Source: Arbacia lixula
Taxonomy: Eukaryota > Echinodermata > Echinoidea > Arbacioida > Arbaciidae
Length of the DNA: 64,000 nt
Assembly: GCA_963669155.1 (NCBI GenBank)
Contig: OZ022586.1
Location: forward strand, 21,880,392 to 21,944,391
Reading direction: 5' to 3'
This document shows, piece after piece, positions 12,089-61,949 of this stretch. The notes under the pieces were generated by a model. It was given only the letters and a program-made list of their open reading frames with translations. It was not told the origin of the DNA and searched no databases. A program made the position numbers and the translations under genes. Within the stretch, counting starts at the first letter, position 1, and the number at the start of each line of letters is the position of its first letter.

Positions 12089-15000
12089 TTATGAGTAGAT
12101 AGGGTTATCAACCATTTCTGTACCGTCCTCGTCGCCGTCGTCGGTCACTTTCTTCTTTTTATCCGGCATGGCGTACAAGGCATCCATGCCCGGCGGCGTA
12201 GACTCCTGCGTGCTAGGCTCTATTGCCTTCGAGGCGCCATTGCGTATCACGCGACTCTTCTTCCGTTTGTCAGGCATCGCATATAAATCGCCCAATTCGG
12301 CGCCTTCTGGTTCGGGCCTGTGCTTTGTCGACACAGCGTATAAGGCGCTCAGATCCTCTTTGTCTTTTGCGAATCCCATGTTAACCTGCGGTTCCTTGTT
12401 GACCACTGCGTAATTGACGCAGTCCTCGTAAGGATGATGGGAGCTTGGTTCTCGTTTACCAAGAGTGTTATCCATGAGAATTTCATCGTAGTTATTCGCA
12501 TCAAACTTGTCACGAGGCTGATCGGGGAGAGGCCCTTTGCTTGCCGCTCTACCATGTCTAGAGTAGATTGAATACAAAAAAAGATCGGGTCAAAAAGGAC
12601 ATTGGCGGAGACTTATGAACAGAGAGAGTAAATAAGCACAGGGTGAAGAATGATAAATAGAAAGAAAGAGAGGGGGGGGGGGGGAACAATGGAAATAATT
12701 GAGAAATTCAAAATATAAGGTTTTATTCATTGTACTAATTGAACTAATAATGCATGCCTGGAATTACTAATAACGATGTTACCACTTCTACTACATTGTT
12801 TCTATTGTTAAAACGGAATTCTAGAAGTACAAACATGTGAGCCATTTACTGCGATAGCACTACTACAGTTTCTCCTTTCACCATTACAATTGATTCTACT
12901 AGTACTACCACTTCACACGCGTATTTACGAATAATACCTCATCAAATACCTGCGTTTGTAAAGGACTACAACGACGATGATGACCACGAGGATGATCACG
13001 ATCACGGCAACCCCTCCACCTGCACCAGCTGCCACGCCTAGTTTGAAAGAGTATTTTGTAGCAATTAATAGACTAAAAGTTGCAATCATTTATTCAAATT
13101 CAACAACTGTCTGGCGCCAACAATGTCCATTCTCTGTGAATGACGTAACTAAGAAAACTCTTTATTAATACGATATGATTGGTTATACCTGGCCAATGCA
13201 GCAGTCCTTCTGAAGACAACATAGACCTACGAGTTACATGATTAAGACAATACTTGTTATAAGTGTGTTTTGGCGGTATTTCAGGTGATATCTTACCTAG
13301 GTTGCTGGTGTTCCCCACTGGCCTCGTGACAGTATCAGTGGTAGAAGACAGGGTCGTATCATCTGGAGTTGTAGAACCCGTCTCGTGGTTGTTTGATGGA
13401 GGGTCTGAAAGAATATAATTAATGATGATTATTAAACAATATTACAAGTTCCAATACCCCATTTCTTAAACTTGTCCTATTGTTACATCTAAAACCCACC
13501 TACCCTTGATATCAAAAAGGGGAAATATTGATACCTCATCAAGCCAGCAGTCCCTCTGGAGAGAGTCGTAAATGGGCCAGGGTCCTGTCACTTAAACGTT
13601 ATGCGACCGACGTCAATCGTAAATCTGTACATTAGAGCTATGAGATTGGACGTGCACTCGATTCAAATAAATCGCAATTCTTTATACGACGGGCCCAGTG
13701 TAAAAAGGTTATCAACATGATAACGAGAATGTTGGCTAAGAGTATGTTTGCGGTATTTCAGGTGTTATCCTACCTAGATTGCTGGTGTTCCCCGCTTGCC
13801 TCGTAACAGCAGGGGTGGTAGATGACAGGGGCGTATCATCGGGAGTTGTAGATCCTACCATGATAGTGTTCGTCGTAACGACTGTAGCTGTTTCATCATG
13901 ATGAACAATGATTTATAAATATTACGATCTATTACTCACCCCTTTCGTTGACGTAGGGCATATGAGGCATTTGAATTACTCCCGAAAAAAGAGTTAACAT
14001 GTATAACCAAATTACACATTTAAACATAATTGTATCACATTGTAACCCTTAGCATGAAACTGTCAGATTTGTTAACAAACACACAAATGCCATAGTGCAG
14101 CAGTTTGGCTAACACACAGGGTTGATAGAAATACCTGTCATATCGTAATCCTTAATGCTGGCCACGAGATGTGTTTTTTGAAACATTTTATTGCAACAGA
14201 AATGGAGGGAAATAACCTCGGCATCAAGAACAAATCCACTCTGAATGTCATAGTTGACATTCTTTGAGCACGATTCTAGTGAGGATGATTTTCCGTCCTG
14301 TAATCAATTTTATATTTGTATGGATAGCTTGTGTTCATTATGCTTTATCCCTTGTTTTGTAATGACGTTTACGTTCATTATAAATACCTGAACTTGTATC
14401 AGCATCCTCAGTTGTTACGATAACGATCGTAGGAGATGTGACTGGCTGACTCGACTCAGGAACTGAGTAAATTGTGAGAATTGATTAATGTTTCTTTGCG
14501 GTATACTGTTAACAAGCATATATTTGTGAAACCGTCACAGTCCGGCCTGTAATATTTGTATAAATAGCTTCTTTTAATTTTGCTTTATACCATGTTTTGT
14601 TATGACGTTAACGTTAAAGACAGCCCGTCCCTTTTTCAGATCACCACAAAACCATCGAAACATTGGCAAAACATATAGAGAAGTGTTAGCAAGCTATATA
14701 TTCATAATTTGAAACGGATACGTAGTGTAAAATTCAAATAATGCACGTAAACAACGTCTGATTAATAGTCTTTACCTCAGGCTCCTAGCAGTTTGTGTTG
14801 ATATATCTGCTTTATTGATTAATCTGTTTATTAAATTATAAAACGCATTATGAAAAAAAAATATTCTTTAGAAGGAATCATCTCCAAGGTTTGGTAGTTA
14901 CTCATAAAATTAAGATTTCACACATGCATAATAACCACATAGATACTGTAACAAAGACTAATACTTTTTTCGTAGTACGAAAAAAGTCGGTTTGAAATTT

Positions 15001-17319
15001 AACGGCTGAAATTTTTACATATACAGAAAGCTTCAACATGCTATATTCTTAGAAATGGTCTTGAAACACACTTTCTTTAATTTACGATCGTGATAGACGA
15101 TTTCAAATTTTAAGCTTGCAAAAGGGACGGACAATCTTTAAGTACAAATACCTGAAATTATATCAAGATCATCAGTTGTCACGATTGTGTGGTGTTGGGA
15201 GATGATTCAGGAATTGAAACATTAGAGACAGAAATTATTTTTATTTGATTAATATTTTCTCTCGGAGAGCTGTTAAAAATCACAGATTCACGAAAAATTC
15301 AAAATCATACAATTAATAAACGATCGCCATAGCTGCTACAATTGACTATTGTCCACGTTTTGTGAGAAATGTAAGACTTGAAAAAGAATGTTAGTATTCA
15401 CATTTAGCGACACGTTAACATGTTATGCAGAATAGAAAATAGTTCCTTAAAATCAATTGGCTTATAACCCTCATTACGAATTCTCGGGATATATTATTAC
15501 GTACTTTGAAATACTGCGATGTGACCAGTTCCGCCACAAGAGCTATTAGCGTCCCCTGTACATAGATTCTGGCAATCCTCATCACCATCCATCGCTGCCC
15601 CGAGCCGACTGTAGTCTGCTCCTGCGACACCGCAGTAACATTCCATTCCTAACTCCACTCCAGCATAGACGTAGTCAGCCATGGTGGATTCTCTGCAGTG
15701 GCTGATGCATTTGTTGGTTGTCATGGTGCTATCCATTGTCAGAGGATCACCAGTTAGAACGCGATTGTTTGGGTCATCCTCGTAGCATCCAAGGTAAGTC
15801 TCATCTGTAAAATGTAAAAACAAGCATGGACATTAGAACGGAGTTAGGAACGCAGTGATTGGACATGATGGGGAATGAATAGGTACGACTAACATGACTA
15901 AGGTTATACAAGTTGTATGAAAGTGCCCACCGTTTTTCCCCCGTGACTTCTACATTTTTTAGAATTAAAAGTGACACTATGTGTGTCAATATAATTGCTC
16001 CCAGATCTATCAAATATCCCTTGTGCTGACAAACTCCCCCAATAAGCATTATTGGCGAGAGGGGCAGAGCATCACCGCCCTCTCTATACCCCACCCCTTC
16101 TTTCTTTCTTTCCTACCTGGGCTACACTAATGAGGCTGAGTGAGGATTGGGTTGATGAGAAAAGACATACTTGTGATCTATGTATAAATGGCTGGGGTCG
16201 ACAAAAATAATTCGTATCTAAAACGACATCCTTCCTACCGTAACAAATTGCTGCTCCGATGACTGTTGTCGAACAAGAGTTGAGCAAAGTACACTCACTG
16301 ATAACTCTGTCACCTGTTAAGGATGCAGACTCATGGAAACATAAGAACATTTATCTTTAAATGTGTGTGTGTTGGGAAGGGAAGGTGGAGGGGAAGCCAA
16401 ACGAATTCCTATTTTCCGTTCAATTAAAAACACAAACAAATACACACACATTCATTCTACACAAACATGCACTCATACATACATATCATACACTCATGTA
16501 TGAAACGTAATGAAAGATTGAGTTCTATCATGTTGTCGCGCCCTGTTGATTACATCTGTCTTGTATGATACGCACAAAGTATAATCTACGTACCTTTCTT
16601 GCAGTGGAGACCTTTGGTTGGTTGTGTAAGGTTACTTTCAAAAGGAGAGTTTTGAATAGCCCTGTTAGTTCCATATGCTCCGATGTGTTCACAGACAACT
16701 CTAGCATCGTGGAAATCAAAGTTGACCCCACACGTCGTCTGCCACATGACATTATCTGTGGTGTACTCCACGGTGCCTTCATAGCGTGATGGGCCGTTCA
16801 CAAGGCGGACGTCTGGGGCAAAAAGTATCATTAAATATACAACACTGAATGAATTAACAATTCAAAATCCTCGCTTCTCATATTACATTTGTTTTAGTAC
16901 CTATCAGTAAAATATTGAGCGTACTGAGTGGAAGGAAATGTTCTATTTCCACCTGCATATTTTATATGATTATTTTATATTTTACTGTCGAGCTTTGTAT
17001 TATTTATTTTGAAAAGCCCGATACCGCCTTTCCTCTTACCACGTCACCCTCTGTGTATTTAGAGTCCAAGAGAGGCCAAGCAGTATGATTATACACAATG
17101 TGGTGATATTTTAACCCTTGTTTGTCACATGTAGTGCACACAAATCCCATAGAGCAGCAGTTTATCTGACACATAAAGGTTCACCATTCGCAATACTATA
17201 ATCACTGCAACTAGACCAGCATAATCGTCTCAGAACTCACCTACTACTTGGCCGCCAGATAGTAATGGAGTGATGGTAGCTACAAGCAAGACGAACCAGA
17301 TTAGAAACAGGGCATCCAT
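12089..17319 (-). CDS. SRCR-WSC type I membrane receptor, gene A (complete, nine exons, 506 aa)
   Basis: Exons in order of transcription: 17241-17319, 16594-16812, 16239-16313, 15505-15804, 14388-14462, 13774-13881, 13297-13404, 12950-13037, 12089-12557. All introns are GT-AG and phase 1 except the last (phase 2). The 1521-nt reading frame is unbroken. Residues 1-23 are a signal peptide (MDALFLIWFVLLVAT). SRCR is about 28-124, split over two exons with six cysteines (WQTTCG, VVCEHIGAYG, SECTLLNSC, IGAAICY), as in group A domains. WSC, a carbohydrate-binding-type cysteine-rich domain, is about 125-224 (TYLGCYEDD, CISHCRES, ECYCGVAG, SSCGGTG). A Thr/Ser stalk spans 225-321, a Val/Ile membrane helix 331-348, and the tail 351-506. 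The tail has YDEI, VNYAVV (ITIM-like), LYAVS, two LYAMPDK motifs and a terminal NPIY. Likely a cell-surface recognition receptor; ligand unknown. Confidence 0.85.
12950..13037 (-). other. Transmembrane exon of gene A
   Basis: Acceptor ttcaaactag, then Gly/Ala-rich GVAAGAGGG, an 18-residue Val/Ile/Leu helix and the stop-transfer YKRR, then donor gcag|gtattt. Near-identical exons at 31481-31568 (gene B) and 51564-51651 (gene C) differ by one to a few residues, much less than the ectodomain exons. Confidence 0.85.
14618..15137. mobile_element. 520-bp non-autonomous element with TTAA target duplication, copy 1
   Basis: Flanked by TTAA on both sides (14614-14617 and 15138-15141). Inverted ends are AGACAGCCCGTCCCTTTT on the left and, inverted, AGATTGTCCGTCCCTTTT on the right. 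A second copy lies at 19763-20279, also between TTAA. Inside is a perfect hairpin, cttttttcgta-g-tacgaaaaaag. TTAA duplication suggests mobilisation by a piggyBac- or Kolobok-type transposase (family knowledge). It sits in intron 4 of gene A. Confidence 0.8.
15152..15213 (-). pseudogene. Dead duplicate of the stalk exon 5
   Basis: Matches exon 5 (14388-14462) around PESS and the donor aatttcag|gtattt. The acceptor cag has become caa, a deletion shortens the middle and a TGA is in frame. It lies immediately beyond the TTAA element, between exons 4 and 5. It shows that the stalk exons have been duplicating within the gene. Confidence 0.6.
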
Positions 17320-17410: not shown

Positions 17411-17913
17411 AATGGCTAAGCATCCATGTCCATCATGTCCATACGACTATCCCGTGGTGAAACTTGATTAAGTTTTCCTGGTTGTTGATTTGTTTTGCTG
17501 ATTTATTAACCGGTCTGTCCGATTAACTAATGGATAATCCTGTGTCCTAAAACGTAATCCAATCCTGGGAAAAGTATTACCAGTTGCATCATGTAACCGC
17601 TGGGGTACAAAGTGAGACGCGAAGTGTACAAGTTGTATTCCACTGTATTGCTTCATACGCAGCGTCGTAATGATTTGAAATATACCTGTCTACTTCCTCC
17701 TTCTCGATAATCCGTGTGTAATTACTGTATAGTTCGTCGCCAACTGCGAACAAATATCCTGAGGGTTCGATGATATTCACAATTCATAACACTCTTGGTA
17801 AACAAAGTAACAATGGTGCGCAAGAAAAACACAATAGACAGATAGAGAGAAATGTGGAGTTGATTGTTAAATAATGTGTAAATACTGGCGTTGAAATAGA
17901 GAGAACAAGAGAG

Positions 17914-17960
<47 letters not shown>

Positions 17961-18000
17961 GTGATAGCTAGTGTACTGGGGGTGGGGGATGATTAGTTGT
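17411..18000. other. Upstream flank of gene A, no gene seen
   Basis: Matches 37550-38330 of unit 2. It carries a (GA)n tract at about 17917-17957. A 63-codon minus-strand frame at 17589-17780 is broken by a TAG in the unit-2 copy, so it is not a conserved gene. Confidence 0.5.
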
Positions 18001-18866: not shown

Positions 18867-18905
<39 letters not shown>

Positions 18906-19760: not shown

Positions 19761-19762
19761 AA

Positions 19763-20279: not shown

Positions 20280-20328
20280 TTAATGAGGTAAAATAACACA
20301 CACAAGAGTGCACGCACACACACATATA

Positions 20329-20329
<1 letters not shown>

Positions 20330-30637: not shown

Positions 30638-33600
30638 CTATGTGTAGATGGGGTTTTCTACCATCTCTGTGCCGTCCTCGTCGTTGTCGTCGGTCACTTT
30701 CTTCTTTTTATCCGGCATGGCGTACAAGGCATCCATGCCCGGCAGCGTAGACTCCTGCATGCTAGGCTTCAGTGCCTTCGAGGCGCCATTGCGCATCACG
30801 TGACTCTTCTTCCGTTTGTCAGGCATTGCGTATAAATCGCCCAAGTCGGCGCCTTCTGGTTCGGCCCTGTGCTTTGTCGACACAGCGTATAAGGCGCTCA
30901 GATCCTCTTTGTCTTTCACAAATCCCATGTTTAGCTGCGGCTCCTTTTTGCTCACACCACATTTGATTGAATCCTCGTACGGGTGAGGGAGGGTTGGTTC
31001 TCCTTTACCAACTGTGCTATCCATGAGAATTTCATCGTAGTTATTCGCATCAAACTTGTCAGGAGGCTGATGGGGAAGAGGCGCCCTTCTTGCGGATCTG
31101 CCATGTCTAGAGTAGATTGAATACAATAGAGATCTGGTCAAATAGAACATTGGCGGATAATTATGAACAGAGGGAGAAAATAAGCAAAGGAGGGAGAATG
31201 AGAAATAGAGAGAAAGAGGGGGGGGGGGTGAGCAAGGGAAATAATTCTGGTTTTATTGTACTAATTGAACTAATAATGCATGGCTGGAATTGCTAATAAT
31301 AATGTTACCACTTCTACTAAATTATTTTTTATTGTTAAAACAGAATTCTAGAAGTAAAAACATGTGAACCATTTTAATACTGCGATAGCACTACTACAGT
31401 TTCTTTTTTCATCATCACAATTGCTTCTACTAGTACTACCATTTCACGCGCGTATTTACGAATAATATCTCATCAAATACCTGCGCTTGTAAAGGACTAC
31501 GACGACGATGATGACCACGAGGATGATCACGATCGCAGCAACCCCTCCACCTGCACCAGCTGTCACGCCTAGTTTAGAAAAGTATAACATTACATTCCAT
31601 TAATAGACTAAAAGTTGCAATTAGTTATTCAAATTCAACATCTGTCTGCTCTTTTTCTGTGAATGACGTAACTTAACAAACTCTTTGTTTATACGATATG
31701 ATTGGTGATACCTGACCAATGCAGCAGTCCTTCTAAAGACAGTAAAGACCTATAAGTTACATGATTGAGACAATGCTTGTTATAAGTGTGTTTTGGCGGT
31801 ATTTCAGGTGTAATCTTACCTAGGTTGCTGGTGTTCCCCACTGGCCTCGTGACAGTAGGAGTGGTAGAAGACAGGGGCGTATCATCTGGAGTCCGTCTCG
31901 TGTTTGATGTAGGGTCTGTAGCAATATTATAATGAATGATGATTATTAAACAATATTAAAAGTTCCAATACCCCATTTTTTAGACTATTGTTACATCTAA
32001 CCGTCCCTTGATATCAACAAGGGGAACTATTGCTATTGATACCTCGTCCAACCACCAGTCCCTCTGAAGAGAGTCGTAAATGGACCAGGGCCCTGTCACT
32101 AAAACGTTTTGCGACTGATATCAATCGTAAATCTCTACATTAGAGCTATGAGATTGGACGTGCACTCGATTCAAATAAATCGTAACGCTTTATACGACAT
32201 GGCCCAGTGTGAACAGTTTCTGCTGCTTATTAACATGATTAAGAGAATGTTGGTTATAAATGTGTTTGCAGTATTTCAAGTGTTATCTTACTTAGGTTGC
32301 TAGTTTCCCCTACTGGGTTTGTGCCAGTAGGAGTATTAGAAGACAGGGGCGTATCATCCGTAGTTGTAGATCCCACCATGATAGTGTTCGATGTAAGGAC
32401 TGTAGGTTTTTGAATATGATAATCAGTAATTTATAAATATCACGATCTGACACCCATCACTTTCTTTAGTGTAGGGCATATGAGGCATTTAAATTAAAAA
32501 AACGTAGCATTTATAAACAAAATACACATTTAAAGTTATTTAAAGAGAAATTTATCATATTGTAACCATCAGCATGCCCCTGTCGGATTTGTTTTTCCTT
32601 TAGATGCACACAAATCCTATTTATGCAGCAGTTTGTCTGGCACACACAGCTTGATATATATATACCTGTCATATCACCAACCTTGCTTATCGCTGGCCAA
32701 GAGCGCTATTGTATTTGAAATATTATATTGCAACAAAGTTAAGGGGGGGGGGGACCCTCGGCATCAAGAACAACTCCACACCCAGTGTCATATTTGACAT
32801 GCATAGAATACGATTCTACTAACGATGATTTTTCCGTATTCGTATAGATGGCCTGTGTTCATTATGCTTTAATCTTTTTTTTGTGATGGCGTTTACGCTC
32901 ATTATAAATACCTGGACTTGTATCAGCATCCTCAGTTGTCACGATAACGATCGTAGGAGATGTGACTGGCTGACTCGACTCAGGAACTAAACAAAATGTG
33001 AAATTTGATGAATGTTTACTTGCAGTATACTTTTAACAATCACATACTCCTGAAACCTTCACAGTCATGTAAATAAACTAAACAATACCCCCCCCCCCCC
33101 AAACCTGAGAAAAATAGCATAACATTTTAAAGAGATTTGGAGCAAAACAACTTAATAACATTATGAAGATTATAAGCCAACTGATGCGCAATGAACTACT
33201 GTGCATAACATGCTAACGTGTCCCAAAATGTGAGTTTAAGCTGTGCGTTTATTGATCATTTTCAAACTTTACTCTTCTCAGAACACGCAAACAATATTGA
33301 TGTTTGTAATCTGACGATGTTTGTAATCTGACTCAGACTGACGACTGAGGTAATATCAGAACAGTTTAATTCATACTTTTTTAATTGTTGCCGAACAGCT
33401 TTAGATTCATTACCTTCTTGTAATACTGATGTAAAGTTTTATTCTTATCTGAAAGACAATTACTCTCATTCTATATTTTTTGAATCCATCAGTGAGTATG
33501 AAGTAATAAGTTTGTGTAATTCCTTGCAAAACAGTAATTCATATGATTTTGATGTGATTAATGTTAATATTGTTAAGAAAATCATATAACCAATTGCAAA

Positions 33601-36600: not shown

Positions 36601-36939
36601 GTCGTCTGCCACATGCCATTATCTGTAGAGTACTCCACGGTTCCTTCATAGCGTGATGGGCCGTTCACAAAGCGGACGTCTAGGGGAGAAAAAAAAATCA
36701 GATATACAACCCTAAATGGATTAACAAATCAAAATCCTTGCTTCTCATATAACATTTGTTGCAGTACCTATCTGTAAAATAATTAGCGTACTGAGTGCAA
36801 GCGAATGTTCTGTTTCTCACCTACATCTGTCGAGCTTTGTATATTTTATCTTGAAAAGCCCGACACCGTCTCTCCTATTTCCACGCCACCATCTGTGTAT
36901 CAAGAGTTGAAGAGGTAGTGTGTGTGTGAGTGTGTGTGG

Positions 36940-38181: not shown

Positions 38182-38229
<48 letters not shown>

Positions 38230-38265
38230 TGAGAGCGAAAGAGAGAGAGAGAGAGGGAGAGAGAC

Positions 38266-48101: not shown

Positions 48102-48740
48102 AAGAGAACATTCATGTATTAAAGTAACCCCATAAGGTTAAGTTCAGTTAAAAGTTTACCAACAATTGTTAACTTGACGTTAACTCTCAAATTTGTTTTA
48201 GTCGGGGTGCGCTACACTAGATAGACTTCCCGTAGAAACCAAAGGTTAATGTACATGAAGAAATTATATGATTTAGAACTTCACTTACTTTTTCTGTGCG
48301 CATAATCGGCCCGTCAATTAAGAGAAGATATTTGCTACATGTAAGGCTGTATGAATCGAGCATGGACCAAGCTGATACAAAGTACAGTATAGTGCACATG
48401 TACTCAACATTGTCCGAGGGAGGTGGTTATTTATAACTTTCATCGGAATGCACGCTCTAGATTACTTTCATAAGTCTTAAAATACGTTGTATTTATTGGC
48501 TTACTTTATTTTAAGCAGATGGCTGTGAATCGTTTGAAATGAACATAAATCAATTGCATAGTTTTTGTTTAAACAGTCAACTAGCAAGATCTATAGAACA
48601 GTATCATAGATTCATTACGTTCAGATGAACTTATCACGACATAATTTTTTTTTGATTATTTTCAAATTATGAAGCGTTAATACTGTTTTGGACGTACTAA
48701 ATGCGCTGTTACATGAAAACATCATATCATAGTCTCAATA
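48102..48740. other. Gene-free stretch
   Basis: AT-rich, no splice-compatible exon or repeat recognised. The 60-codon minus frame at 48217-48399 has no support. Confidence 0.4.
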
Positions 48741-48871
48741 GCCAGGCTGGTTCCATATACTCCGATGTGTTCACAGACAAGTCTAGCGTCGTGGAAATCA
48801 GAGTTGACCCCACACGTCGTCTGCCACGTGACATTATTTGTGGTGTACTCCACGGTGCCTTCGTAGGACGT
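48741..48871 (-). pseudogene. Broken SRCR exon 2 remnant downstream of gene C
   Basis: After the normal ttgccccag acceptor the minus strand starts ACGTCC and then lacks about 20 bp (the RLVNGPSR part), shifting the frame. The rest still matches: YEGTVEYTTNNVTWQTTCG, HDARLVCEHIG. It then diverges and no donor is found. Flanking sequence to about 49440 matches receptor intron 1. It corresponds to the 9046-9095 scar. Confidence 0.7.
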
Positions 48872-50776: not shown

Positions 50777-51454
50777 TTATGTGTAGATTGGATTTTCTAC
50801 CATTTCTGTACCGTCCTCGTCGTCGGTCGCTTTCTTCTTTTTATCCGGCATGGCGTACAAGGCATCCGTGACCGGCGGTGTAGATTCCTGCGTGCTAGGC
50901 TCTGTTGCCTTCGAGGCGCCATTACGCATCACGTGATTCTTCTTCCCTTTATCAGGCATCGCGTATAAATCGCCCAACTCTGCGCCTTCTGGTTCGGGCC
51001 TGTGCTTTGTCGACACAGCGTATAAGGCGTTTTTAGCAGGTCCAATGTTAACCTGCGGTTCCTTGTTGACCACTGCGTAATTGACGCAGTCCTCGTAAGG
51101 ATGATGGGGGCTTGGGTTTCGTCCATCAAGTGTGATTTCCATGCGAATTTCATCGGAGTTATTCGGATCAGACTTGTCAGGAGGCTGATCGGGGATATGC
51201 GCTTTATCTGTGGCTCTGCCATGTCTAGAAAGGATTGAATACAATAGAGATCGGGTAAAAAAGGACATCAACGGAGAATTATGAACAGAGGGAGAAAATA
51301 ATAAGCACAGGAGGGAGAATGAGAGATAGAGAGAAAGGGGGGGGGGGGTGATCAAGAGGAATTATTGAGCAATTAAAAATAGGCCTATATTGTTTATTGT
51401 TTGTACTTGAATTAATAATGCATGACTGGAATTACTAATGATAGTACAAAAATG

Positions 51455-51490: not shown

Positions 51491-54400
51491 TCACCATTAA
51501 AATTACTTCTACTTAGAACCATCACTTAACACGCGTACTTTCGAATAATACCTCATCAAATACCTGCGTTTGTAAAGGAGTACGAAGACGATGATGATCA
51601 CGAGGATGATCACGATCGCAGCAACCCCTCCACCTGCACCAGCTGTCACGCCTAGTTTAGAAAAGTATAAAAATTGATTCCATTAATAGACTATAAATTG
51701 CAATCAGTTATTCAAAGTCAACAACTGTCGGGCGGCATCAATGTCCATTTTCTGTGAATGACTTAACTATGCAAACTCTTTATTAATACGATATGATTGG
51801 TGAATATCCAGGCAGGAAGGTGTTAGAGCTGGAGTCAGCACGAAGAATAATTTATTCCTACACCAGTCGCGATCATTGATAGCACAATAGAATATTTGAC
51901 GCATTTGGTTTTTTGATCCAGTGACGACTATGGCACGCCATAAGGGAATCAATTCAAAATATATTTCACTTGAACAAATATATGTTTCTCTTTCACTAAA
52001 CCATTTCACTCAAGCAAATTTATATTTCACTTTCCAAAAATATATTCTACTTTTCAAAAAAATTCATTCCACTTTATCACAAAGATATCTTTCACTTTAT
52101 TCCAAAATGCATTTCACTTTTTCACAAAATTATATTTCACTTCTCACAAAATATCATTTCACTCAATGTCAAAATACTTTTCACTTTCTAAAAAAAAAAA
52201 TCATTTCACTCTTTACAAAACTACTTTTCACTCTTTACCGAAATTCATTTCACTTTTTCACAGAAATACATTTTACTTTTCATAAAAATAAATTTCACTT
52301 GATCACAATAAATCGTTTCACTTTCCACGAAAATATATTTCACTTTTCACAAAAATATATTTCACTTTTGAGCAAAAAAAGAATAATTTTACTTTCAGCA
52401 AAAAAAAATCATTTTACTTTTGTTGGATAATACAATCCAATGAATTGATCTTGAGCCTCTACCTAAGGCCATAACAGTACGTTGATAAAATTCATTCCTC
52501 TTTGTTGTCACGTAAAAATCCATTCCTCTCTTTCGCAAGAAATCATTTCACTCTTTCCAAAAATACGTTCCTCTTTTTTCTCGGCCAAAAGGGGGCGCTG
52601 TATTTTGAGCAAGCGCAAGCTAGATCATCAGCTCGGACGGCAGTACAGTACATACAGACGGCGCGGTACGACCTGTCTCGCCTGTCGGTACTGCGGTGAA
52701 GGTGCCTGCAGTCTAGCCGCAGCGCCTGCACAATCGCACGTATTTATACAAGTCGTATGCACGAAACCTTTGTCGCTGCATATGTAATGAGCAATGACAG
52801 ACCTGAATTCACAATAGAATAACTCAGGAAAGAAACGACACATTTCCATGAAATCTTCGGGGTTATGGAGATAAAACTATGAAATTCCGTTTGTCTCAAG
52901 GAAAATCTTAGGTGAATCACAGAAATATTTGAAAATCTAAGAGATTTATCGGAGGAAAATGTGTGTTGTTACAAAACATCTTAAAAATTAAGTTCTTTAT
53001 ACATGATTCACCGAAATAATTGCTTCAGAGTCTCAAGAAACCTTCTTTCTAGTAAAAAGTAGCCAAAATGTAATATTCTACAATCTATACCAGTCAGGAG
53101 CTAGCAAAATATAACCAGTGTTTCAAAAGGCTGAAGGAAAAGTTGCTCGCCGTACGAGCGGGATGCTTTGATCGGAATCTCGCCCGGGGGTCCCCCACAA
53201 TGCTTCACACGAGTTCCGTATATAACTGCTAGCGAGGAAAACAGTGCGCGCGTGTCGGTTGTCCATCGTGATTAATCGTACGGTATATTTAATAGTGAGT
53301 GCACCCCCGTTACCAAAAGCCCTCCGACTTGCATTATTGCACCACTCGTTGACTATTGTGTGTGTATCACTTTTGGAAGTGGTTCGTCGTCTCGGGGTCG
53401 TTTAGCAGGGCGTTTTAGTAGTTATGGTATCTGTCTGTTTGCATTGCCATCTTCCTGTTCTTGGTATAACATGTACTGATCGATGTTTGATACTGTTATT
53501 TTTATACTCCATGAAGTGATAAAGGAATGAAAATCAAAGTTTAACACCACAAACTGACGTATGTAGTTTAAGCAATTTTATTTTACCCATGATGGGAAGC
53601 ACTTGTTATTCCGAAGGTTCATTTAGTACAAAGGTTGGAATACATGTACTCGAAAGCTTTGTTATTCCGAAGGTTCATTATTCCGAAGGTTCATTAGTCC
53701 GAAAACAAAATAAGGTTTGTTATTCTGAAAACGAAATAAAGTTTGTTTTTCCGAAGGTTCGTTAATCCAAAAGTGAAATAAGGTTTGAACCCTTTTAACG
53801 AACCTTCTAAAAAACAAACTTTTGTTTTCAGATTAACAAACCTTCGAAAAGACGAACTTTATTTCGTTTTCGGAAAAACTAACTTTATTTCGTTTTCGAA
53901 TGAACGAACCTTCGGGAAAAACGAACTTTATTTTTTTTTCCGAGCCTTCGGAATATCGAACTGTAACCGATGATATAGCCATACTTCATGTATTGGCATG
54001 AAATTATTAAATCTCTTTGGTAAATTAAAACTTTAATCCACGCTAGATGAGGGTATAAAGTGATAGATCCCGACGAAAGGGCACAAGTTCCCAAAGGATT
54101 TTTTTTATTGTGGGGGGGGAGGGGGGGGGGGTGGGGCTCGACAGTAAAAAATAAAAACAAAATTGAAAACTTACACCCCCCCCCCAGCCCCCCCCCCCCA
54201 ACATGCACACAATGCACTCTTTTTATTCTGAAAATGCACCATTGCATTGTAAATCATATTTCTAAAGTATCATTAAGAAAGTCATTTACCCCCCCCCCCT
54301 CTCTCTGAACATGTTTCTTTCACTCCTTTTCTCCTTGTTTCCCAACTCTTCTCTTCTTTTTATAGTATCTCTTTCTCACTCTCACCTCTAATATTTCTGT

Positions 54401-57400
54401 AATTTTTCTTCCCTCACACACATACTTTTACTCAATTATCAACAGCACATAGGCCTATCCATTGAAAAGTAATTGGTAAATCGGGCACAAAAAAGAGCGG
54501 TGTACTAGATGAAATTAAATAGTGCTGCAAATGGCAAGACAACTTTTATTAACAGCTGACAGTGGATGAGCATGCAAAAACATTTAAAACTACTGTACAT
54601 CTCTTGTTTGAATACCTGACTTGTCACAATTTACATGAGGTATTGAAATGCTGGCAATGTTATCGTATGGGCCCTACCACATGGCCCATGATAACTACAT
54701 CACACACTGTAGTACAAATCACAAAGTTGCCTACATTTATATTTTACAGTGTCCCAGGAGGTACACCTGTACACTTCATAACTGTGATGAAAATATAATG
54801 TATCCAAAGTATTATTTCTTCATGTCACAATGTCTACCTTCTAAGTACAAACTGTGTTGATACTCTACATGGCAAGATACCTCTTGTAATTGCATTTACA
54901 TTCTTAAAAGCTAGAATTCTTGCACTTTCTTTGGCAATTTCTTTTAAGTTCATGTACAAACTAAGTTAAGAACAACTTGAATGTGAAGTGAAAACTACAT
55001 AAAAGAAGATATCATATTTTTCTTTTCTGAAATAAATTATGTAACAAAAATACTTAACTTGAAAGAAGAGATGTTACTCACATATTCCCTTTTTGATTCA
55101 CACACATGTCTGAGAATATTTGCGAGAATATTTCCTGATAAAAGAAGTAATCTTAGAATGTATTTTGGCAAACTTTCAGATACAAAAAAATAATAAATAT
55201 GTTGTTGTACAGTGAATGAGTTATACATGCGTGCATCTCTTTGTAATTCACACATGAAACACAATTTGAACATCATGTGAGGCTTGAACAATAACACAAA
55301 AGATTGAAAATAAAATGACCGTGATGCACATTCTATAAAATATAGAATTAAACTTAAGCCACAAAACCAAACAATGGTTAAATATAAAACATCAAGCATC
55401 ATATTTCCACATCTTCATATTCAGAGTCTATGCTTTCTCTGTCATATTCTTTTGGCAGTATATTAACTTCCAAGCCACTTTCAATGTCTTCATCATAAAG
55501 GATACTTAAAGTACTGCTTACAGTAGAATCATCATCATCCTCAACATCATCATCATCATCATCATCATCACTAGCATCACTAGCATCATCACCATCATTA
55601 TCAAGATCAGCTGAATATTCTGTTGTGGTGTCACATGTCGATGTAGATTGCATTGGCATAGTTACATTAGGAACATTTTCACAGTGTTTGCATCTACAAC
55701 CAGGGCCACATTTTCTTTTATCCTTAACACATTTACAAAGCCTATTTGTACATTTGCTCTTAGAACAAGCACAGCCTCGTGTAAGGTATATAACATTTTC
55801 TCTAATGCGATTAATATTTTTTTCTGTATCCCAAATAATGCTGACCTTGTTCTTATCATCTTGATTTGTTATATTATATCCATAAAAAGAAATGTTTGGA
55901 TATATGAAAATTGGAGAATTAACTTCATCCCATACTGTTGATACCCAACAACTCCTTAACCAGTGAAGGTTCAAAGCAGAATTAGAAGGGAGCAGATCAT
56001 CTTCATATTCACCCTTCCATGAAGCTAAACGTACTATATCCAGAGCCTTATGATGCCGTGACATAATATCAGAATCTTCTATACTATTGTACAGATCAAT
56101 AATCGAATTGTAATTATGAAGACAAGAACGGTTAACATGGTAAAATATGCACATAATAAGGCGATAAAAAGACATTAAACCATCATCTGAATTAACATTA
56201 AATTCAGTTTGAGCTAAGTTACCTTGTGTATTACTGTAGCATCCAGTAATAAAATGTGCATGTTGGAAAAATAATTTAAAAAAGGTAGGCTTCCCTATAT
56301 GCGCAAAGTATGAAACAAAATCACAACCTGACGTGATATATAAAACCTGAAGAATCTTCCAAACATTTAACTGCTTATTTATCAAACTTGCCAAATCAGA
56401 ATCATGGTCACATGCAGACTGTAATGAATTGAGATTTAGATATTTTTCATCCCCCGCTCAGGCACTGTATTGCACTGTGACATGTTTATTACCAAAGTTC
56501 AAGGGAAGTCCTATCACACCGATATCTCGATCAATAGAATATATTAAAATATTATTGCATGGAGTATCATTTACATGTAACCAGATCTGTGTATCACTTT
56601 CCTCGTGATTATGGACAATATTATGATGATCAATGCCTTGCTCACTTATTGAAACACCTGTCCATTGACTAGAACTCTCAATTCCGACATGAAATCCTCC
56701 AGAAGTAACAAAAACTTTACCACTGTTTATTTCAATATCATTTTTTACAAGCTCAATAAATTTATTGGACAAGTAACGACATAAGGTGTATTTGTTCTGG
56801 CGAACTTTAAGAAAATTATTCCATTGGTTTGGAAGAGGGACTTTGTCATCAAGTGACTCATAATAATAACATTCTCCTTCAGTTTTATCCCTTCTGCTAC
56901 GTTCTACATCTTTTGGAGAAATACCCTGTGTTCCGACTTGATCAAAGAGGATCCGGACTTCTTTTACATTTTTCTTGAAAAAAAGAAAACACCCATCTAG
57001 CTATCAGAAATTGTGCATATTCGTCAAATGTTTTTAGATTTTTCAGGGGAGAACTATATATTATATTCACGCCTTCTACAATCACGCACGTATAAGACAC
57101 AAACTTGAAAGACGGGGACACTTTTTCATAACTTGATGAATATCTTTTTTTTTTTTTTTTAATCTTTGTCTGGTGTATAGGACTCATTCTTCAACTTTTT
57201 TGAATATTTTTGCCTGCAACTGTTACATATACAAGAAAAATCTGAAATGTCTGTAAACTTTGATTTGATTAAATCTTTTAGCATTTCAGACTTAATTAAA
57301 TTGAAATGGGTGTATTTGTGAGATGTTTTTTGACAAAGGCGACATGGTCCACATGAAAAATTCCCACAGGGCTGCTTATGTTTGGTAAGCTTTTCTTTCA

Positions 57401-60400
57401 CCCCAACGAAACATTTGTGTTTTTGTTGAACAATATTGCACGAGGGGCGATTGAAGGTAGAACTGGTCTGGTGGTGGATGAGGATCAGGAGCTAGAGGTG
57501 CGATTGAAGGTGGAACTGGTGGTGGATGAGGATCAGGAGCTAGAGGTGCGATTGAAGGTGGAACTGGTGGCGGATGAGGATCAGGAGCTAGAGGTGCGAT
57601 TGAAGGTGGAACTGGTGGCGGATGGGGATCAGGAGCTAGAGGTGCGATTGAAGGTGGAACTGGTGGTGGATGAGGATCAGGAGCTAGAGGTGCGATTGAA
57701 GGTGGAACTGGTGGCGGATGGGGATCAGGAGCTAGAGGTGCGATTGAAGGTGGAACTGGTGGTGGATGAGGATCAGGAGCTAGAGGTGCGATTGAAGGTG
57801 GAACTGGTGGTGGATGAGGATCAGGAGCTAGAGGTGCGATTGAAGGTGGAACTGGTGGCGGATGGGGATCAGGAGCTAGAGGTGCGATTGAAGGTGGAAC
57901 TGGTGGTGGATGAGGATCAGGAGCTAGAGGTGCGATTGAAGGTGGAACTGGTGGTGGATGAGGATCAGGAGCTAGAGGTGCGATTGAAGGTGGAACTGGT
58001 GGCGGATGGGGATCAGGAGCTAGAGGTGCGATTGAAGGTGGAACTGGTGGCGGATGAGGATCAGGAGCTAGAGGTGCGATTGAAGGTGGAACTGGTGGCG
58101 GATGGAAATCAGGAGCTACAGGTGCGACTGGACGAGTGACATGAAGATGAGAAAGTGGAACTGGTGGTGGATGAGGATCAGGAGCTACAGGTGTGACTGG
58201 ATGAGTGACATGAAGAGGAGAGGATCTTACTTGTGGAGAATCACACAAGTGGCCATCCTCATATTTGATCTGTGGTTAAAGTGAAAAAAAAAACACATTT
58301 AGGCAAAACATTAGTAAAACTGAAAGAAAAAAATGTTCCTTACAAGTCAATATCACATACAGAAACATTTCTTACTTAAGTCAAATTAAATGTGTTTTTT
58401 TTTTCGCAGAGCAAGATCACTTTAATCACAACTAAAATGACGAAAAAGGACTTTACCAATTTCTCAGTCAAACAGAGGGACATTAAGGCCAGTCCAAACT
58501 GCATCCATGGAAAGAAGTTAGGAACGTGTAAAAAAAAAAATTATGGTAATGTATTTTACAACCCTATCATTTAAAACACCCTGCCCCACCCCCACAAAAT
58601 ATAAAAAAGGAAGAAGGTGTTTAGGTCTACTAACTTTGGTGGCTGGGCAGCCACCAAAGTTAGTAGACCTAAACACCTTCTACCTTTTCCGGTGCTTCTT
58701 GATCCTCTGCCGCCTCCTCTTCCTTTCTCTGGCCTTCTTGCGTGTGGTAACATATGGAGCAGGTGACTTGGGGAGTGGGGAACAGGGTAGCATGATGATT
58801 GTGCTGGGAATGTTATGTATGGAATAAGGCTCAGGTTCTTAGATGATAGCTCATGATATTTAGGGGGAGGAGGGAGCAACACTGGATCTCGTTTTTTAAC
58901 AACTTTCTTTTTTTTTCTCTTTGGTTGATCCACCTTCGGTTTAAGATAAGGCTTTCCATATCGTTCCCTTTTTCTGTATTTTATTAGGGCTTTTTCCTTT
59001 TCTGATAGGATTGGTTGTTGAACAGTTGATTTTGAGCGGGAACTGCAGGAAATTTTAATCAAAATTTTTAATTCTTTAGGTATTCAAGTTGTTTGCTTGG
59101 GTTTGAAGTTTTGGTAGTAAACAAATTGAGATATTAAATTTGTGAATTCAGAAGCAAGTGCTGACTTCCCTTCAAGAGTTAAATGAACACCATCAAAATG
59201 AAAAAACCTATCACTGCACAAAAAGGGGGAAGTGGCGAGTATCACATAGCAATTAAAAAAACCTTAGCACAATTTGTGTAAATTATTGATATACACTGTA
59301 GTACCTCGACTTCGTGTATAAATCTTCTTTAAAAAATTTTAAGAGGACGAGTCGAAGGTAATCGAAGCAGTCTAAATGTTTTTAAAAGACAAGTCGACCA
59401 CATATACCCCCCATCACTATACCAAAAACATAACACGGAAATACACGTACGGGACTGGACACTAGTTATTTCGTTCACAAGTTTTCGCGCGGTTTCACCA
59501 ATTCTACAAAGCAAACGAGGGCTACTTCCGGTCAAATAGGATATTTAAGTCATTTTCAAACTGATTTTTAAGACAAAAGAACTGGTGATTCGATCAAAAT
59601 CCCCGATGTCATCACAAATCAACATTTCATCTTTTCACGTAAGAAGTTTCAATACAAAACGATTTTCAACTGTTAATCATTGACATTTAAGCTATTGACT
59701 CGGGCTTTTCTACCGCGATGACAAACGTGGACATGATGGAGTGGAATCTTGTATTTTAATATAGAATCTCACATAAGCTTGTATGATGGGGGGACCCTAG
59801 GGCGGCTAGGCTTGTCTGCGCACCTAGTGATATTTCACTGAAAATTGACAAACTTTCATTGTGTATTCCTCTAATGGCTGACCTCATTAACAGTTACATA
59901 CTAAATAAATCTAGATCTCCAGTAGTACAGGATCTAACATTCATGGCATTAGAGCTACCACACTACATAACCGGCGTTAGAATCTAGATCTAACACGTAC
60001 TAGCGTTAACGTTGTAACTGTAGTGTTAGTTAACAAAATAATTTAGACCTTTTGGTCTTGCCTCTAGGATAACCACAAACGTACAAACTACAGTGACATA
60101 CCTTTGATTTTGATTCCAGCAATATAATAACGTTAGACATCCGTGTCTATATAGTAGATCTTCACGGTGTCTACTCTAGTGTGGCTCGGTAGGTACGCGT
60201 ATACATGTGTAACTGTTAGGCGGCCGGGCGCGGCCGGATGATCGGAGGCCTAGGCACCTTCACCGCAGTACCGACAGGCGAGACAGGTCGTACCGCGCCG
60301 TCTGTATGTACTGTACTGCCGTCCGAGCTGATGATCTAGCTTGCGCTTGCTCAAAATACAGCGCCCCCTTTTGGCCGAGAAAAAAGAGGAACGTATTTTT

Positions 60401-61949
60401 GGAAAGAGTGAAATGATTTCTTGCGAAAGAGAGGAATGGATTTTTACGTGACAACAAAGAGGAATGAATTTTATCAACGTACTGTTATGGCCTTAGGTAG
60501 AGGCTCAAGATCAATTCATTGGATTGTATTATCCAACAAAAGTAAAATGATTTTTTTTTGCTGAAAGTAAAATTATTCTTTTTTTTGCTCAAAAGTGAAA
60601 TATATTTTTGTGAAAAGTGAAATATATTTTCGTGGAAAGTGAAACGATTTATTGTGATCAAGTGAAATTTATTTTTATGAAAAGTAAAATGTATTTCTGT
60701 GAAAAAGTGAAATGAATTTCGGTGAAGAGTGAAAAGTAGTTTTGTAAAGAGTGAAATGATTTTTTTTTTTAGAAAGTGAAAAGTATTTTGACATTGAGTG
60801 AAATGATATTTTGTGAGAAGTGAAATATAATTTTGTGAAAAAGTGAAATGCATTTTGGAATAAAGTGAAAGATATCTTTGTGATAAAGTGGAATGAATTT
60901 TTTTGAAAAGTAGAATATATTTTTGGAAAGTGAAATATAAATTTGCTTGAGTGAAATGGTTTAGTGAAAGAGAAACATATATTTGTTCAAGTGAAATATA
61001 TTTTGAATTGATTCCCTTATGGCGTGCCATAGACGACCGCCGCCAAATATGCAAAACGAATTTTGGATGCATTTAGAGGAATATATGTTCTGTATGCGCA
61101 GATGATTTCAGAACCGCTTTATGTACTGAACTGCATGTGCAGTAGTAGTACATATTTTAACGATACGATTGTGTGAATTTCAGATTATATTGTTGCTTCG
61201 TTTTTGTGATAAAGGGAGAATACTTTAGAAAACATGTCAGAGAAATGCCTCCATATCGAACATTGGGAAATCATATTTCCTTAAAAGTATCTTGTAAATT
61301 GTTTATTGAGTGTTTCACCTTTCATGAATACAACCTCAATTTCGTGTCCATAGATGTCCGAAAAAGTTACGGACCAAATTCTTTCTACAATTTTATCAAA
61401 AATTTTATTCGCTCACACCAAAACTTATTTACAGTGTGTGTAAAAAGATCAGCTATGAACTCCCAGCAAAGACTGAACGGTTGACATATTTCTCAAAACA
61501 GATTTTCTTTTGTTATTGAGAGGAAGGCACTGCCTAATTAGAAATACAGCGTATTGTTTGAAACACCTGAATGTCTTGAGGCGGCGGTCATCATAGATCA
61601 AAGGAGGTCTATCCGAGCGCAGTCCATCCATGCTAGGTCAATGATCCAGGGAAGTCAGAGGGATTAGGGCCTAGTCTGTATTACTAGACATGGTTGTTAA
61701 CAGACTCAGTTGTCACCTTGCACTCCTCATCCTTCTTACTAGGCTAGGTGATACCTGGCCAATGCAGCAGTCTTTATTAAGACAATATAGACCTGTGCTT
61801 GTTATAAGTGTGTTTTGGCGATATTTCAGGTGTAATCTTACCTAGTTTGCTGGCGTTCCGCACTGGCCTCGTGACAGTAGGAGTGATAGAAAACAGGAGC
61901 GTGTTATCTGGAGTTGTAGAGCCCGTCTCGTGGTTGTTTGATGTAAGGT
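50777..61949 (-). CDS. SRCR-WSC receptor gene C, last three exons (5' part not in window)
   Basis: Exons in view: stalk 61842-61949 (GSTTPDNTLLFSITP), transmembrane 51564-51651, tail 50777-51224. All three keep acceptor, donor, phase and an open frame. The intron between the first two is now about 10.2 kb because it holds the 9.9-kb insertion; splice sites are intact, so splicing across it is possible. The tail keeps VNYAVV, LYAVS, two LYAMPDK-type motifs and NPIYT, but NNYDEI has become NNSDEI. Similarity to the other units stops near 62290, in the next intron, so exons 1-6 are either deleted or beyond position 64000. Could be a pseudogene. Confidence 0.65.
51929..52707 (+). repeat. Left terminal inverted repeat with TTTCAC subterminal array
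   Basis: 779 bp. The first 500 bp holds roughly 20 units of about 23-26 bp of the type tttcacttttcacaaaaat (variants tttcactctttac, ttttactttc). The inner part reads cattcctcttt, gcgctgtattttgagc and ends ggtgaaggtgcct. Units of this kind are the usual place for transposase binding. The 169-codon open frame across it (Phe/His-rich) is a product of the repeat. Confidence 0.9.
52708..55398. other. Non-coding left interior of the transposon
   Basis: No coding domain recognised. 53140-53420 is more GC-rich, with ctcgcccgggggtcccccac and a cgtatataactg TATA-like string. 53600-53960 is the aggttcg hairpin repeat. Poly-G and poly-C runs lie at 54100-54310. 54560-55398 is AT-rich, with scattered short frames, and may contain the 3' untranslated region of the minus-strand gene. 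Confidence 0.45.
53600..53960. repeat. Inverted array of ccgaaggttcgtt / aacgaaccttcgg units
   Basis: The left half (to about 53790) repeats gttattccgaaggttca and gaaaacgaaataaagttt. The right half repeats the inverse (cgaaccttcgg, aaactttatttcgttttcgga), so the block can fold into a long imperfect hairpin. Low-complexity repeat nested in the transposon. Confidence 0.75.
55399..57000 (-). pseudogene. Transposon protein, C-terminal half with CXC domain; in-frame TGA
   Basis: One frame is open from 57000 to the stop at 55399 except a TGA at 56458-56460. In order: FDQVGTQGISPKDVERSRR, PLPNQWNNFLKVRQNKYTL, IVHNHEESDTQIWLHVND, LIYSIDRDIGVIGLPL, TSGCDFVSYFAHIGK, then an insert. A tesmin/TSO1-like CXC zinc-binding motif follows (CACSKSKCTNRLCKCVKDKR, CGPGCRCKHCENV), then an acidic Asp-run tail. 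I recognise this series (NHEExDT, xxxDTDVxVL, TGCDxVSxF, CXC) from multicopy transposon-linked proteins of aquatic animals; its biochemical role is not known to me. The Asp expected in DTDV is RDIG here, perhaps damaged. Confidence 0.6.
57001..57401 (-). pseudogene. Transposon protein, zinc-binding N-terminal half in two frames
   Basis: The frame ending at 57159 has QPCGNFSCGPCRLCQKTSHK and FSCICNSCRQKYSKKL, two cysteine clusters (CxxxxCxxCxxC and CxCxxC) that look zinc-binding. It stops at a TAA next to a 15-A run. The continuation is in another frame (SYTCVIVEGVNIIYSS, LKTFDEYAQFLIARW), which in turn gives way to the 55399-57000 frame at a T/A-rich run near 56980. Three frames joined at homopolymers look like one coding sequence with two indels, or with base-calling errors. 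Confidence 0.55.
57376..58248 (-). CDS. Proline-rich tandem-repeat protein segment (16-residue units)
   Basis: A 290-codon frame: MCDSPQVRSSPLHVTHPV, two degenerate units, then about 13 copies of PLAPDPHPPPVPPSIA. It leaves frame after an extra gacca in the last unit (PPPDQFYLQ) and ends TAG-side at 57376. Each unit is 48 bp, so expansion keeps the frame. Probably an exon or leader region of the transposon protein upstream of the zinc-binding part, but the joining splice or frame is not clear. The opposite strand is also open, because the unit has no stop in that frame. Confidence 0.4.
   Translation of the reverse strand: MCDSPQVRSSPLHVTHPVTPVAPDPHPPPVPLSHLHVTRPVAPVAPDFHPPPVPPSIAPLAPDPHPPPVPPSIAPLAPDPHPPPVPPSIAPLAPDPHPPPVPPSIAPLAPDPHPPPVPPSIAPLAPDPHPPPVPPSIAPLAPDPHPPPVPPSIAPLAPDPHPPPVPPSIAPLAPDPHPPPVPPSIAPLAPDPHPPPVPPSIAPLAPDPHPPPVPPSIAPLAPDPHPPPVPPSIAPLAPDPHPPPVPPSIAPLAPDPHPPPDQFYLQSPLVQYCSTKTQMFRWGERKAYQT
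57466..58140. repeat. 48-bp minisatellite, about 13 near-perfect units
   Basis: Unit ggaactggtggtggatgagg plus atcaggagctagaggtgcg and attgaaggt, period exactly 48. Variation is almost confined to two sites (ggtgg/ggcgg and gatgagg/gatgggg). Call the variants A (ggtgg..agg), B (ggcgg..agg) and C (ggcgg..ggg). The order from left is A A B C A C A A C A A C B, then a degenerate unit. The A-A-C triplet repeats with a 144-bp period in the right half. Confidence 0.95.
58571..59062 (-). other. Basic-N-terminus open frame in transposon, 163 codons
   Basis: The minus-strand frame starts MIKISCSSRSKSTVQQ, then EKEKALIKYRKRERYGKPYL and a KRKKKK basic run, then Pro/Ser-rich sequence. Its last 40 codons lie in the palindrome. 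An acceptor-like ttcctgcag at about 59043 could start an exon here. Possibly a coding exon of the transposon upstream of the proline repeat. Not recognised. Confidence 0.35.
58613..58680. repeat. Perfect 32-bp-arm palindrome, 4-nt loop
   Basis: Arms gaaggtgtttaggtctacta and onward (58613-58644) and their exact inverse (58649-58680) around gggc. With one mismatch the pairing extends about 9 bp further. Both strands therefore read the same peptide, CLGLLTLVA.QPPKLVDLNT. Confidence 0.95.
59084..59213 (-). pseudogene. C-terminal end of an SGNH/GDSL-type hydrolase-like domain
   Basis: After a textbook acceptor (cgccacttccccctttttgtgcag) the minus strand reads DRFFHFDGVHLTLEGKSALA, then SEFTNLISQFV and a TGA after PKQTT. 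DGVHLTLEG is the last conserved block of SGNH hydrolases (the catalytic Asp-x-x-His pair). The Ser-containing block would be in an upstream exon that I cannot find in 59214-60251. An SGNH-type domain as part of the transposon's coding set, or a captured fragment, are both possible. Confidence 0.5.
59214..60251. other. Right interior of the transposon, likely 5' region
   Basis: No domain recognised. A 68-codon minus frame (59329-59535) lacks support. The minus-strand transcript should start here or inside the right terminal repeat. About 59900-60110 is AT-rich with several aacgtta/tctaga motifs. Confidence 0.35.
60252..61031 (-). repeat. Right terminal inverted repeat
   Basis: Inverse of the left end over 780 bp. 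By eye they differ at one substitution (ctcttcaccg against ctctttaccg) and one or two indels in A-runs; the inner 230 bp looks identical. Confidence 0.9.
61038..61746. other. Flank between transposon and gene C sequence
   Basis: Foreign to units 1 and 2. A 103-codon plus frame (61173-61484) has no recognised domain. gaccgccgcc beside the target duplication recurs inverted as ggcggcggtc at about 61579. Probably the right arm of the older insert. Confidence 0.35.

Follow-up and report, generated by a model that had tools for sequence, protein, structure and literature searches.

What are the receptor-like genes in this stretch of Arbacia lixula DNA, how far do they extend beyond it, and what might their products do? 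The window (the whole stretch that was analysed, 64,000 nucleotides; C11:21880392-21944391) contains genes that join an SRCR domain to a WSC domain. The array to which they belong was searched for across the whole genome (606,990,701 bases, 590 contigs), and full-sequence reading covered 260 kb of the array, window included. The three genes of the window, A, B, and C, were found to be a small part of a tandem array of about 70 units, with gaps, that occupies the last ~2.1 Mb of contig C11. The family consists of type I membrane receptors with a signal peptide, one six-cysteine SRCR domain, one eight-cysteine WSC domain, a Thr/Ser stalk of one to three exons, one transmembrane helix, and a tail. 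Two types of tail alternate along the array as if shuffled.

Genes A and B were each reconstructed as nine exons on the minus strand, with GT-AG at all inner boundaries, no inner stop, and the same intron phases (phase 1 for introns 1 to 7, phase 2 for intron 8). Gene A measures 1527 nt (508 aa) and gene B 1509 nt (502 aa). The exons of the three genes that lie inside the window are as follows (window coordinates).

17241..17319, minus strand: gene A exon 1, signal peptide MDALFLIWFVLLVATITPLLSGGQVV (assigned by visual inspection)
16594..16812, minus strand: gene A exon 2, SRCR first part, three cysteines (gene model and Pfam)
16239..16313, minus strand: gene A exon 3, SRCR second part, three cysteines (gene model and Pfam)
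15505..15804, minus strand: gene A exon 4, WSC, eight cysteines, CGG motif (gene model and Pfam)
14388..14462, minus strand: gene A exon 5, Thr/Ser stalk (gene model)
13774..13887, minus strand: gene A exon 6, stalk (gene model)
13297..13404, minus strand: gene A exon 7, stalk, paralogous to exon 6 (gene model)
12950..13037, minus strand: gene A exon 8, type-1 transmembrane helix (gene model)
12089..12557, minus strand: gene A exon 9, type-1 tail (YDEI, YEDC, YAVV, YAVS, YAMP twice, NPIY)
37380..37458, minus strand: gene B exon 1, signal peptide (gene model)
36461..36679, minus strand: gene B exon 2, SRCR first part (gene model)
36065..36142, minus strand: gene B exon 3, SRCR second part (gene model)
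35361..35657, minus strand: gene B exon 4, WSC (gene model)
32912..32986, minus strand: gene B exon 5, stalk (gene model)
32292..32399, minus strand: gene B exon 6, stalk (gene model)
31820..31915, minus strand: gene B exon 7, stalk (gene model)
31481..31568, minus strand: gene B exon 8, type-1 transmembrane helix (gene model)
30638..31106, minus strand: gene B exon 9, type-1 tail (gene model)
61842..61949, minus strand: gene C exon 7, stalk (gene model)
51564..51651, minus strand: gene C exon 8, type-1 transmembrane helix (gene model)
50777..51224, minus strand: gene C exon 9, type-1 tail (gene model)

Both domains exceeded the curated Pfam cut-offs in gene A (WSC, 1.3e-15; SRCR, 4.5e-9) and in gene B (WSC, 4e-16; SRCR, 1.3e-9). 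The SRCR scores were 37.0, 38.8, and 34.9 bits in A, B, and C, respectively, against a cut-off of 26.1, with the type-2 gene G8 just below it at 25.9; WSC scored 57.8 to 62.4 bits in all four genes (cut-off, 27.8). The best relatives of solved structure were SRCR chains (PIT54, M130) for the first part of the protein and Kremen 1 (7.5e-12) for the WSC part. In genes A and B and along the array, the SRCR domain is split over two exons; a group A SRCR domain is generally spread over two exons. An AlphaFold model of the WSC exon, built from a two-row alignment, reached a predicted local distance difference test score of 39.6. A block upstream of gene A (17440-17968) is 82% alike to one upstream of gene B (37699-38236) and is a candidate promoter region.

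Nine more genes were modelled (C, G4, G5, G6, G7, G8, G10, G11, and G12), all without an inner stop, with GT-AG at every inner boundary, with frames that are multiples of three, and with 14 ectodomain cysteines each. Among them, C, G4, G5, G6, G8, G10, and G11 are complete from the ATG; in G12 the modelled frame begins three codons before an ATG that lies three codons inside the projected start, and G7 is complete except for exon 1, which was not found. The ten genes modelled from a start codon comprise five with nine exons, three with eight, and two with seven, and in G6 and G8 one stalk exon each was placed. Exons 1 to 6 of gene C lie at contig positions 21954624-21948754, past the window end at 21944391, and the joined frame of 1497 nt has no inner stops, which rules out a truncated copy.

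An earlier sequence-only reading of the window had described two complete genes and the last three exons of a third, all on a shared nine-exon design. Its domain identities, their order, the transmembrane helix, and the tyrosine tail were right by gene models and Pfam, and the Pfam check, once run, placed SRCR and WSC above cut-off in genes A and B. Both genes rebuild as it described, at 1509 nt for gene B, but gene A was put at 1521 nt; the 6-nt shortfall is what a CAG six bases deeper in exon 6 would give. Exons 7 to 9 of gene C were located correctly, but the gene is complete. Nine exons hold for A and B but are not a fixed design, because stalk exons come and go along the array.

The extent of the array was established from WSC exons, for which 150 of 173 genome-wide candidates were scored. 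A total of 125 of the 150 matches lie on C11, and 74 fall between 21.655 Mb and the contig end at 23.786 Mb, where an even spread would place ~0.5. Among these 74, which have a median spacing of 14.5 kb, 67 are minus-strand and 7 plus-strand matches. Sixty-nine of them pass a cut of E<1e-11, which was chosen by us, and are termed stronger below; coordinates of WSC and tail matches were transferred by hand into the spacing and tail-pairing counts. A further 25, mostly weaker, WSC matches lie beside the array at C11:20.0-21.655 Mb and, with a divergent SRCR exon at window 3337-3564, perhaps represent an older sister family.

Within the 260 kb, exons 2, 3, and 4 are each represented by 14 intact copies, not all from the same 14 genes; these have three, three, and eight cysteines, respectively, with no exception, and the CGG motif is present in all 14 copies of exon 4. 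Length differences among intact paralogues are multiples of 3 (exon 2, 216/225; exon 3, 69-87; exon 4, 291-309), in alignments from which rows of any other length had been removed beforehand, together with exon matches that lacked the expected splice sites or contained stops and exon 2 or exon 4 matches with <90% coverage. One exon chain repeats along the 260 kb. Because of these lengths, this chain, and a skew toward synonymous change between A and B, chance is a poor account of the pattern. The most variable parts among copies are the latter half of exon 2 and exon 3, the middle of which varies in length.

Two membrane modules, each a helix exon plus a tail exon, are unrelated to each other yet share the same intron phases. 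The type-1 module, with a 155-residue tail, is carried by genes A, B, and C; the type-2 module has a 95-residue tail, and its helix exon in G8 encodes PIIGLGVVVLLFAIYSISLTVLYLRI. Five type-2 helix exons and five type-2 tails were found in the 260 kb, always paired. All 63 type-1 candidates in the genome were scored and yielded 50 matches, all within C11:21.658-23.712 Mb; after four split pairs were merged by hand, these represent 46 places, of which 5 are pieces beside type-2 tails, leaving 41. All 41 type-2 candidates were likewise scored and yielded 37 matches, 31 of them with E<1e-36, of which 30 lie in the array and the other is next to a WSC exon on C22; of the remaining six, one is a partial array copy and five are weak relatives located elsewhere. 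The lone WSC exon and type-2 tail at C22:6626080-6631171 probably represent a type-2 gene copy that dispersed to this contig.

The next tail after each of the 69 stronger WSC exons was type 1 in 37 cases, type 2 in 25, and neither in 7, a count that supersedes a looser pairing rule by which 42 of the 69 had a type-1 tail. Tail types form 39 runs along the array, against a mean of 36.3 in shuffles. Alternative exons of one gene were considered and rejected for the 260 kb, since type-2 loci hold at most a degenerate type-1 piece: three of the five keep one, and two have none at E<0.01. In the genome-wide search, five type-1 pieces sit 311-336 bp from a type-2 tail; one of these is among the three seen in the 260 kb, and the other two of the three were seen in the 260 kb only. 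Some type-2 loci at least thus hold a degenerate type-1 end; no type-2 piece was found at any type-1 locus in the 260 kb. A tail shared with unrelated receptors elsewhere was rejected for type 1, all of whose matches lie in the array. Type 2, or its ancestor, is the more widespread form, given its full copy on C22 and the five weak relatives in other places; the latter favour type 2 as the older one, without settling the order of origin. Neither tail matched an entry in PDB, the type-1 tail had no relative among the genome contigs searched, and the WSC exon had none among the viral contigs. A type-1 variant, subtype 1b, occurs at C11:22109658-22110117 and 22130122-22130581, with ~28 residues fewer, YDEI among them; 8 of the 50 type-1 matches begin at query residue 33-35.

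In an ectodomain tree of 14 genes, which included three of the five type-2 loci and which G13 entered without exon 3, the three type-2 genes fell in three places, and forcing them into one clade cost 32.95 log-likelihood units (approximately unbiased [AU] test, p = 3.7e-5). Two old subfamilies marked by tail type are rejected by this test, and tails have therefore been exchanged. Mosaic genes were also apparent. In the WSC-stalk intron, identity is 30% between A and G4, whose copies of intron 1 are 99% identical, and 65% between G4 and G11, whose tails are 99% identical; G6 (type 2) and G11 (type 1) are 93% identical in the SRCR-WSC intron. C and G10 form a close pair, with introns 94-97% identical. 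Identity was computed over the longer sequence, and low values therefore partly reflect insertions. Because similar ectodomains bear either module within one cluster and tail type does not track ectodomain ancestry, the modules must have been exchanged by recombination between neighbouring genes.

The ratio of nonsynonymous to synonymous change (dN/dS), obtained with our own Nei-Gojobori script, was 0.64 for SRCR, 0.71 for WSC, 0.67 for the stalk, 0.26 for the helix, and 0.43 for the tail between A and B, and a Fisher test applied to SRCR, WSC, the stalk, the tail, and the whole gene showed a skew to synonymous change for the tail (p = 0.0024) and for the whole gene (p = 1.6e-4). Across the 260 kb, the mean ratio was 0.72 in exon 2 and 0.70 in the helix exon, against 0.60 in exon 4 and 0.45 in exon 9; for type-2 tails, dS was 0.155 and dN 0.061. 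The tails are therefore kept while the ectodomain drifts or diversifies, with positive selection not shown.

Of the 12 type-1 tails in the 260 kb, the 9 full ones were aligned. Tyrosine occupies columns 43 (YEDC), 92 (first YAMP), and 154 (NPIY) in all nine, columns 49, 73, and 128 in eight, and column 23 (YDEI) in seven; NPIY is terminal in eight. All five type-2 tails have YTDL or YTDV, YQDL, YVNQ, and YEDF, and none has NPxY. An immunoreceptor tyrosine-based activation motif (ITAM) is a pair of YxxL/I motifs 6-12 residues apart, and by that spacing neither tail type has a canonical one. The YxxI/L, YxxP, YxN, and NPxY motifs of the tails are presumably readable as SH2, PTB, or sorting motifs.

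Taken together, domain content, tail motifs, and exchange suggest that these are probably paired-receptor-like recognition receptors, endocytic or phagocytic, with an output that depends on the tail. The SRCR and WSC domains, held off the membrane by the stalk, would jointly bind microbial or altered-self glycan or protein ligands, and clustering driven by ligand would lead to phosphorylation of tail tyrosines. Type 1, with YxxI/V, repeated YAMP, and terminal NPIY, may then drive uptake and adaptor binding as in CED-1, Draper, and MEGF10, and type 2, with YTDL, YQDL, YVNQ, and YEDF, may recruit a different set of SH2 proteins, so that a single ligand-binding repertoire would feed two signalling outputs, as in vertebrate paired receptors. 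SRCR proteins have varied ligands (PMC10855680), and the WSC domain, defined with eight cysteines, has a PAN/Apple fold and occurs in a fungal beta-glucan lectin cited in the same source (PMC9024836).

Several observations weigh against this reading. The solved domain of yeast Wsc1 has no apparent glycan pocket (PMC9024836), and WSC is outside the top five SRCR partners in the sea star A. planci (PMC10855680). Among the type-1 tails of the 260 kb, NPxY is missing from one of the nine full copies and from the two of subtype 1b, where its proline is lacking, and YTDL and YQDL in type-2 tails are 15 residues apart, wider than ITAM spacing. Between A and B, dN/dS did not differ significantly from 1 in SRCR (p = 0.11), WSC (p = 0.20), or the stalk (p = 0.17), so that the ectodomain gives neither a clear sign of constraint nor a signal of positive selection. 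Strong support in the ectodomain tree is limited to 2 of its 11 inner branches. Array genes outside the 260 kb are known as exon matches alone, no tail was located for seven of the stronger WSC exons, and the array includes relics as well as broken copies.

Other explanations were weighed against the same evidence. A purely endocytic role, in which scavenger receptors for soluble ligands have tails that differ in sorting rather than in immune signalling, is rather doubtful: the NPIY that ends eight of nine full type-1 tails would suit it, as would YxxI/V motifs readable as internalisation signals, but sorting needs less than the 155 residues of the type-1 tail, whose seven tyrosines include three that are constant across nine copies, and less than the YVNQ present in all five type-2 tails of the 260 kb. 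Amplification by chance of Kremen-like developmental co-receptors (Wnt/Dickkopf) is highly improbable. It would explain why the WSC part has Kremen 1 as its best match of solved structure, but Pfam detects no kringle and no CUB domain in any of A, B, C, and G8, and ~70 copies with fast ectodomain change are unlike a developmental receptor, Kremen itself being present as one or two genes. A role in distinguishing self from non-self or in contacts between cells (allorecognition or coelomocyte aggregation) instead of microbe binding, with the array read out by a pair of opposing tails in the way suggested for fester/FcoR of Botryllus, is unlikely, even if a large array, two tails, and mosaic exchange agree with it and the balance of ITAM and inhibitory motifs (ITIM, immunoreceptor tyrosine-based inhibition motif) is tied to allorecognition in tunicates (PMC12065747); starfish SRCR proteins, said to be opsonins and to act in coelomocyte aggregation (PMC13409769), fit both readings.

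Two further alternatives question the array itself. Haplotype copies or a misassembled repeat could have inflated it, and the position at a contig end, the broken copies, and the C/G10 pair, which could be haplotypic, are what an artefact might leave; mean synonymous divergence of 0.15-0.33 by exon between copies (exon 3 not computable) and the different transposons and relics between them make this very unlikely. That runaway duplication left mostly pseudogenes is extremely unlikely. Relic exons and tail-less WSC exons would be expected of it, but in eleven genes the frame stays open through every exon located, and cysteines are kept in the 14 intact copies each of exons 2 to 4, a set from which rows with stops or broken splice sites had been dropped.

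The window contains several other features.

48734..48865, minus strand: SRCR exon 2 relic, downstream of gene C
9049..9090, minus strand: SRCR exon 2 relic, downstream of gene A
3337..3564, minus strand: divergent SRCR exon belonging to a neighbouring gene (17.4 bits in Pfam, under the 26.1 cut-off)
51929..61031, no strand given: 9.1-kb DNA transposon in gene C intron 7 (~780-bp terminal inverted repeats 99.6% alike, 6-bp flanking repeat GACGAC)

The transposon is young; it contains an open reading frame with a Tesmin/TSO1 CXC domain (55402-56457, minus strand) and a 48-nt tandem repeat at about 57324-58247. A reverse-transcriptase open reading frame (33590-35026, plus strand; RVT_1, 8e-33) lies inside gene B intron 4, with a related piece at 11416-11901 (minus strand). 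The last exon of another membrane protein, encoding a helix and a proline-rich tail with PPPPTYDEA, occurs at 23223-23828 and 43851-44456 (both plus strand) and again at C11:21969603-21970208 and 21987563-21988168. These four copies in the 260 kb, with 99-100% protein identity, are far closer to each other than the surrounding receptors are, having been amplified within the array, and the exon has no Pfam match. No Rfam match at gathering score and no tRNA was found in the window.

To our knowledge, echinoderm SRCR families are large and the intracellular action of such receptors is hardly known. The co-occurrence of SRCR and WSC in sea urchin was already known. A 2024 survey of SRCR proteins counted 36 WSC domains in those of S. 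purpuratus and placed WSC among the top five SRCR partners in S. purpuratus and P. australis (PMC10855680). The S. purpuratus superfamily resembles the array in its tandem SRCR genes, in WSC among its SRCR proteins, and in the dominance of group A, which has six cysteines where group B has eight; it differs in that 15 of 16 genes on the scaffold described are SRCR-only, with one exon per SRCR domain in all but one gene (PMC10855680), whereas each array gene has one SRCR domain over two exons, one WSC domain, one helix, and one of two tails. The skeletal proteome of Patiria miniata has one "Scavenger Receptor/WSC/Sushi" entry (PMC5460417), and a sea-cucumber genome preprint gives 37 SRCR genes, the term "WSC" being absent from its available text (PMC13228809). 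No such receptor appears in the available portions of PMC6767649, PMC8242945, PMC3927612, and PMC12784826, and no description of a single-SRCR/single-WSC transmembrane array or of the two tails was found in searches of open-licence papers, whose supplementary tables may list the genes. The "undescribed echinoderm recognition system" of the sequence-only reading is thus narrowed: the pairing of domains is in print, the array and the tail exchange appear to be new, and the recognition function is inferred.

Known receptors outside echinoderms share parts of this organization. EMI/EGF-like ectodomains set CED-1, Draper, and MEGF10 apart from A, B, C, and G8, none of which has such a Pfam match. 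MEGF10 has an EMI/EGF-like ectodomain, and we know of no large tandem array of CED-1, Draper, or MEGF10. The likeness, here for type 1 alone, lies in a single-pass protein with NPxY and further tyrosine motifs in the tail, NPxY and ITAM motifs being found in engulfment receptors (PMC8092387). Kremen 1 and 2 likewise place WSC in a single-pass receptor (PMC3927609) but combine it with kringle and CUB and have no SRCR domain. Fester and FcoR of Botryllus are clustered invertebrate receptors discussed in terms of ITAM/ITIM balance, unlike the array in their Sushi/Ig ectodomains, and fester encodes no known signalling domain (PMC12065747). Vertebrate paired receptors (CEACAM1/CEACAM3, KIR, LILR, and Siglec) are alike in joining similar ligand-binding parts to different tails, and recombination or gene conversion in them swaps signalling regions, as described for CEACAMs, or keeps binding exons alike (PMC2832619). 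They differ in having immunoglobulin folds in place of SRCR-WSC, and opposite signalling is described for the vertebrate receptors.

With two modules and traceable exchanges, the array offers a natural experiment in which one ectodomain lineage is set on two tails. It is tentatively suggested that the ~70 linked receptors, with a fast-evolving recognition part recombined onto two fixed modules, may form an invertebrate paired-receptor complex built on SRCR-WSC. Such a complex would be convergent with the leukocyte and natural-killer receptor complexes of vertebrates, with no immunoglobulin or C-type lectin fold, and if the two tails signal differently, paired-receptor logic would have arisen without vertebrate-type lymphocytes and on other protein folds.

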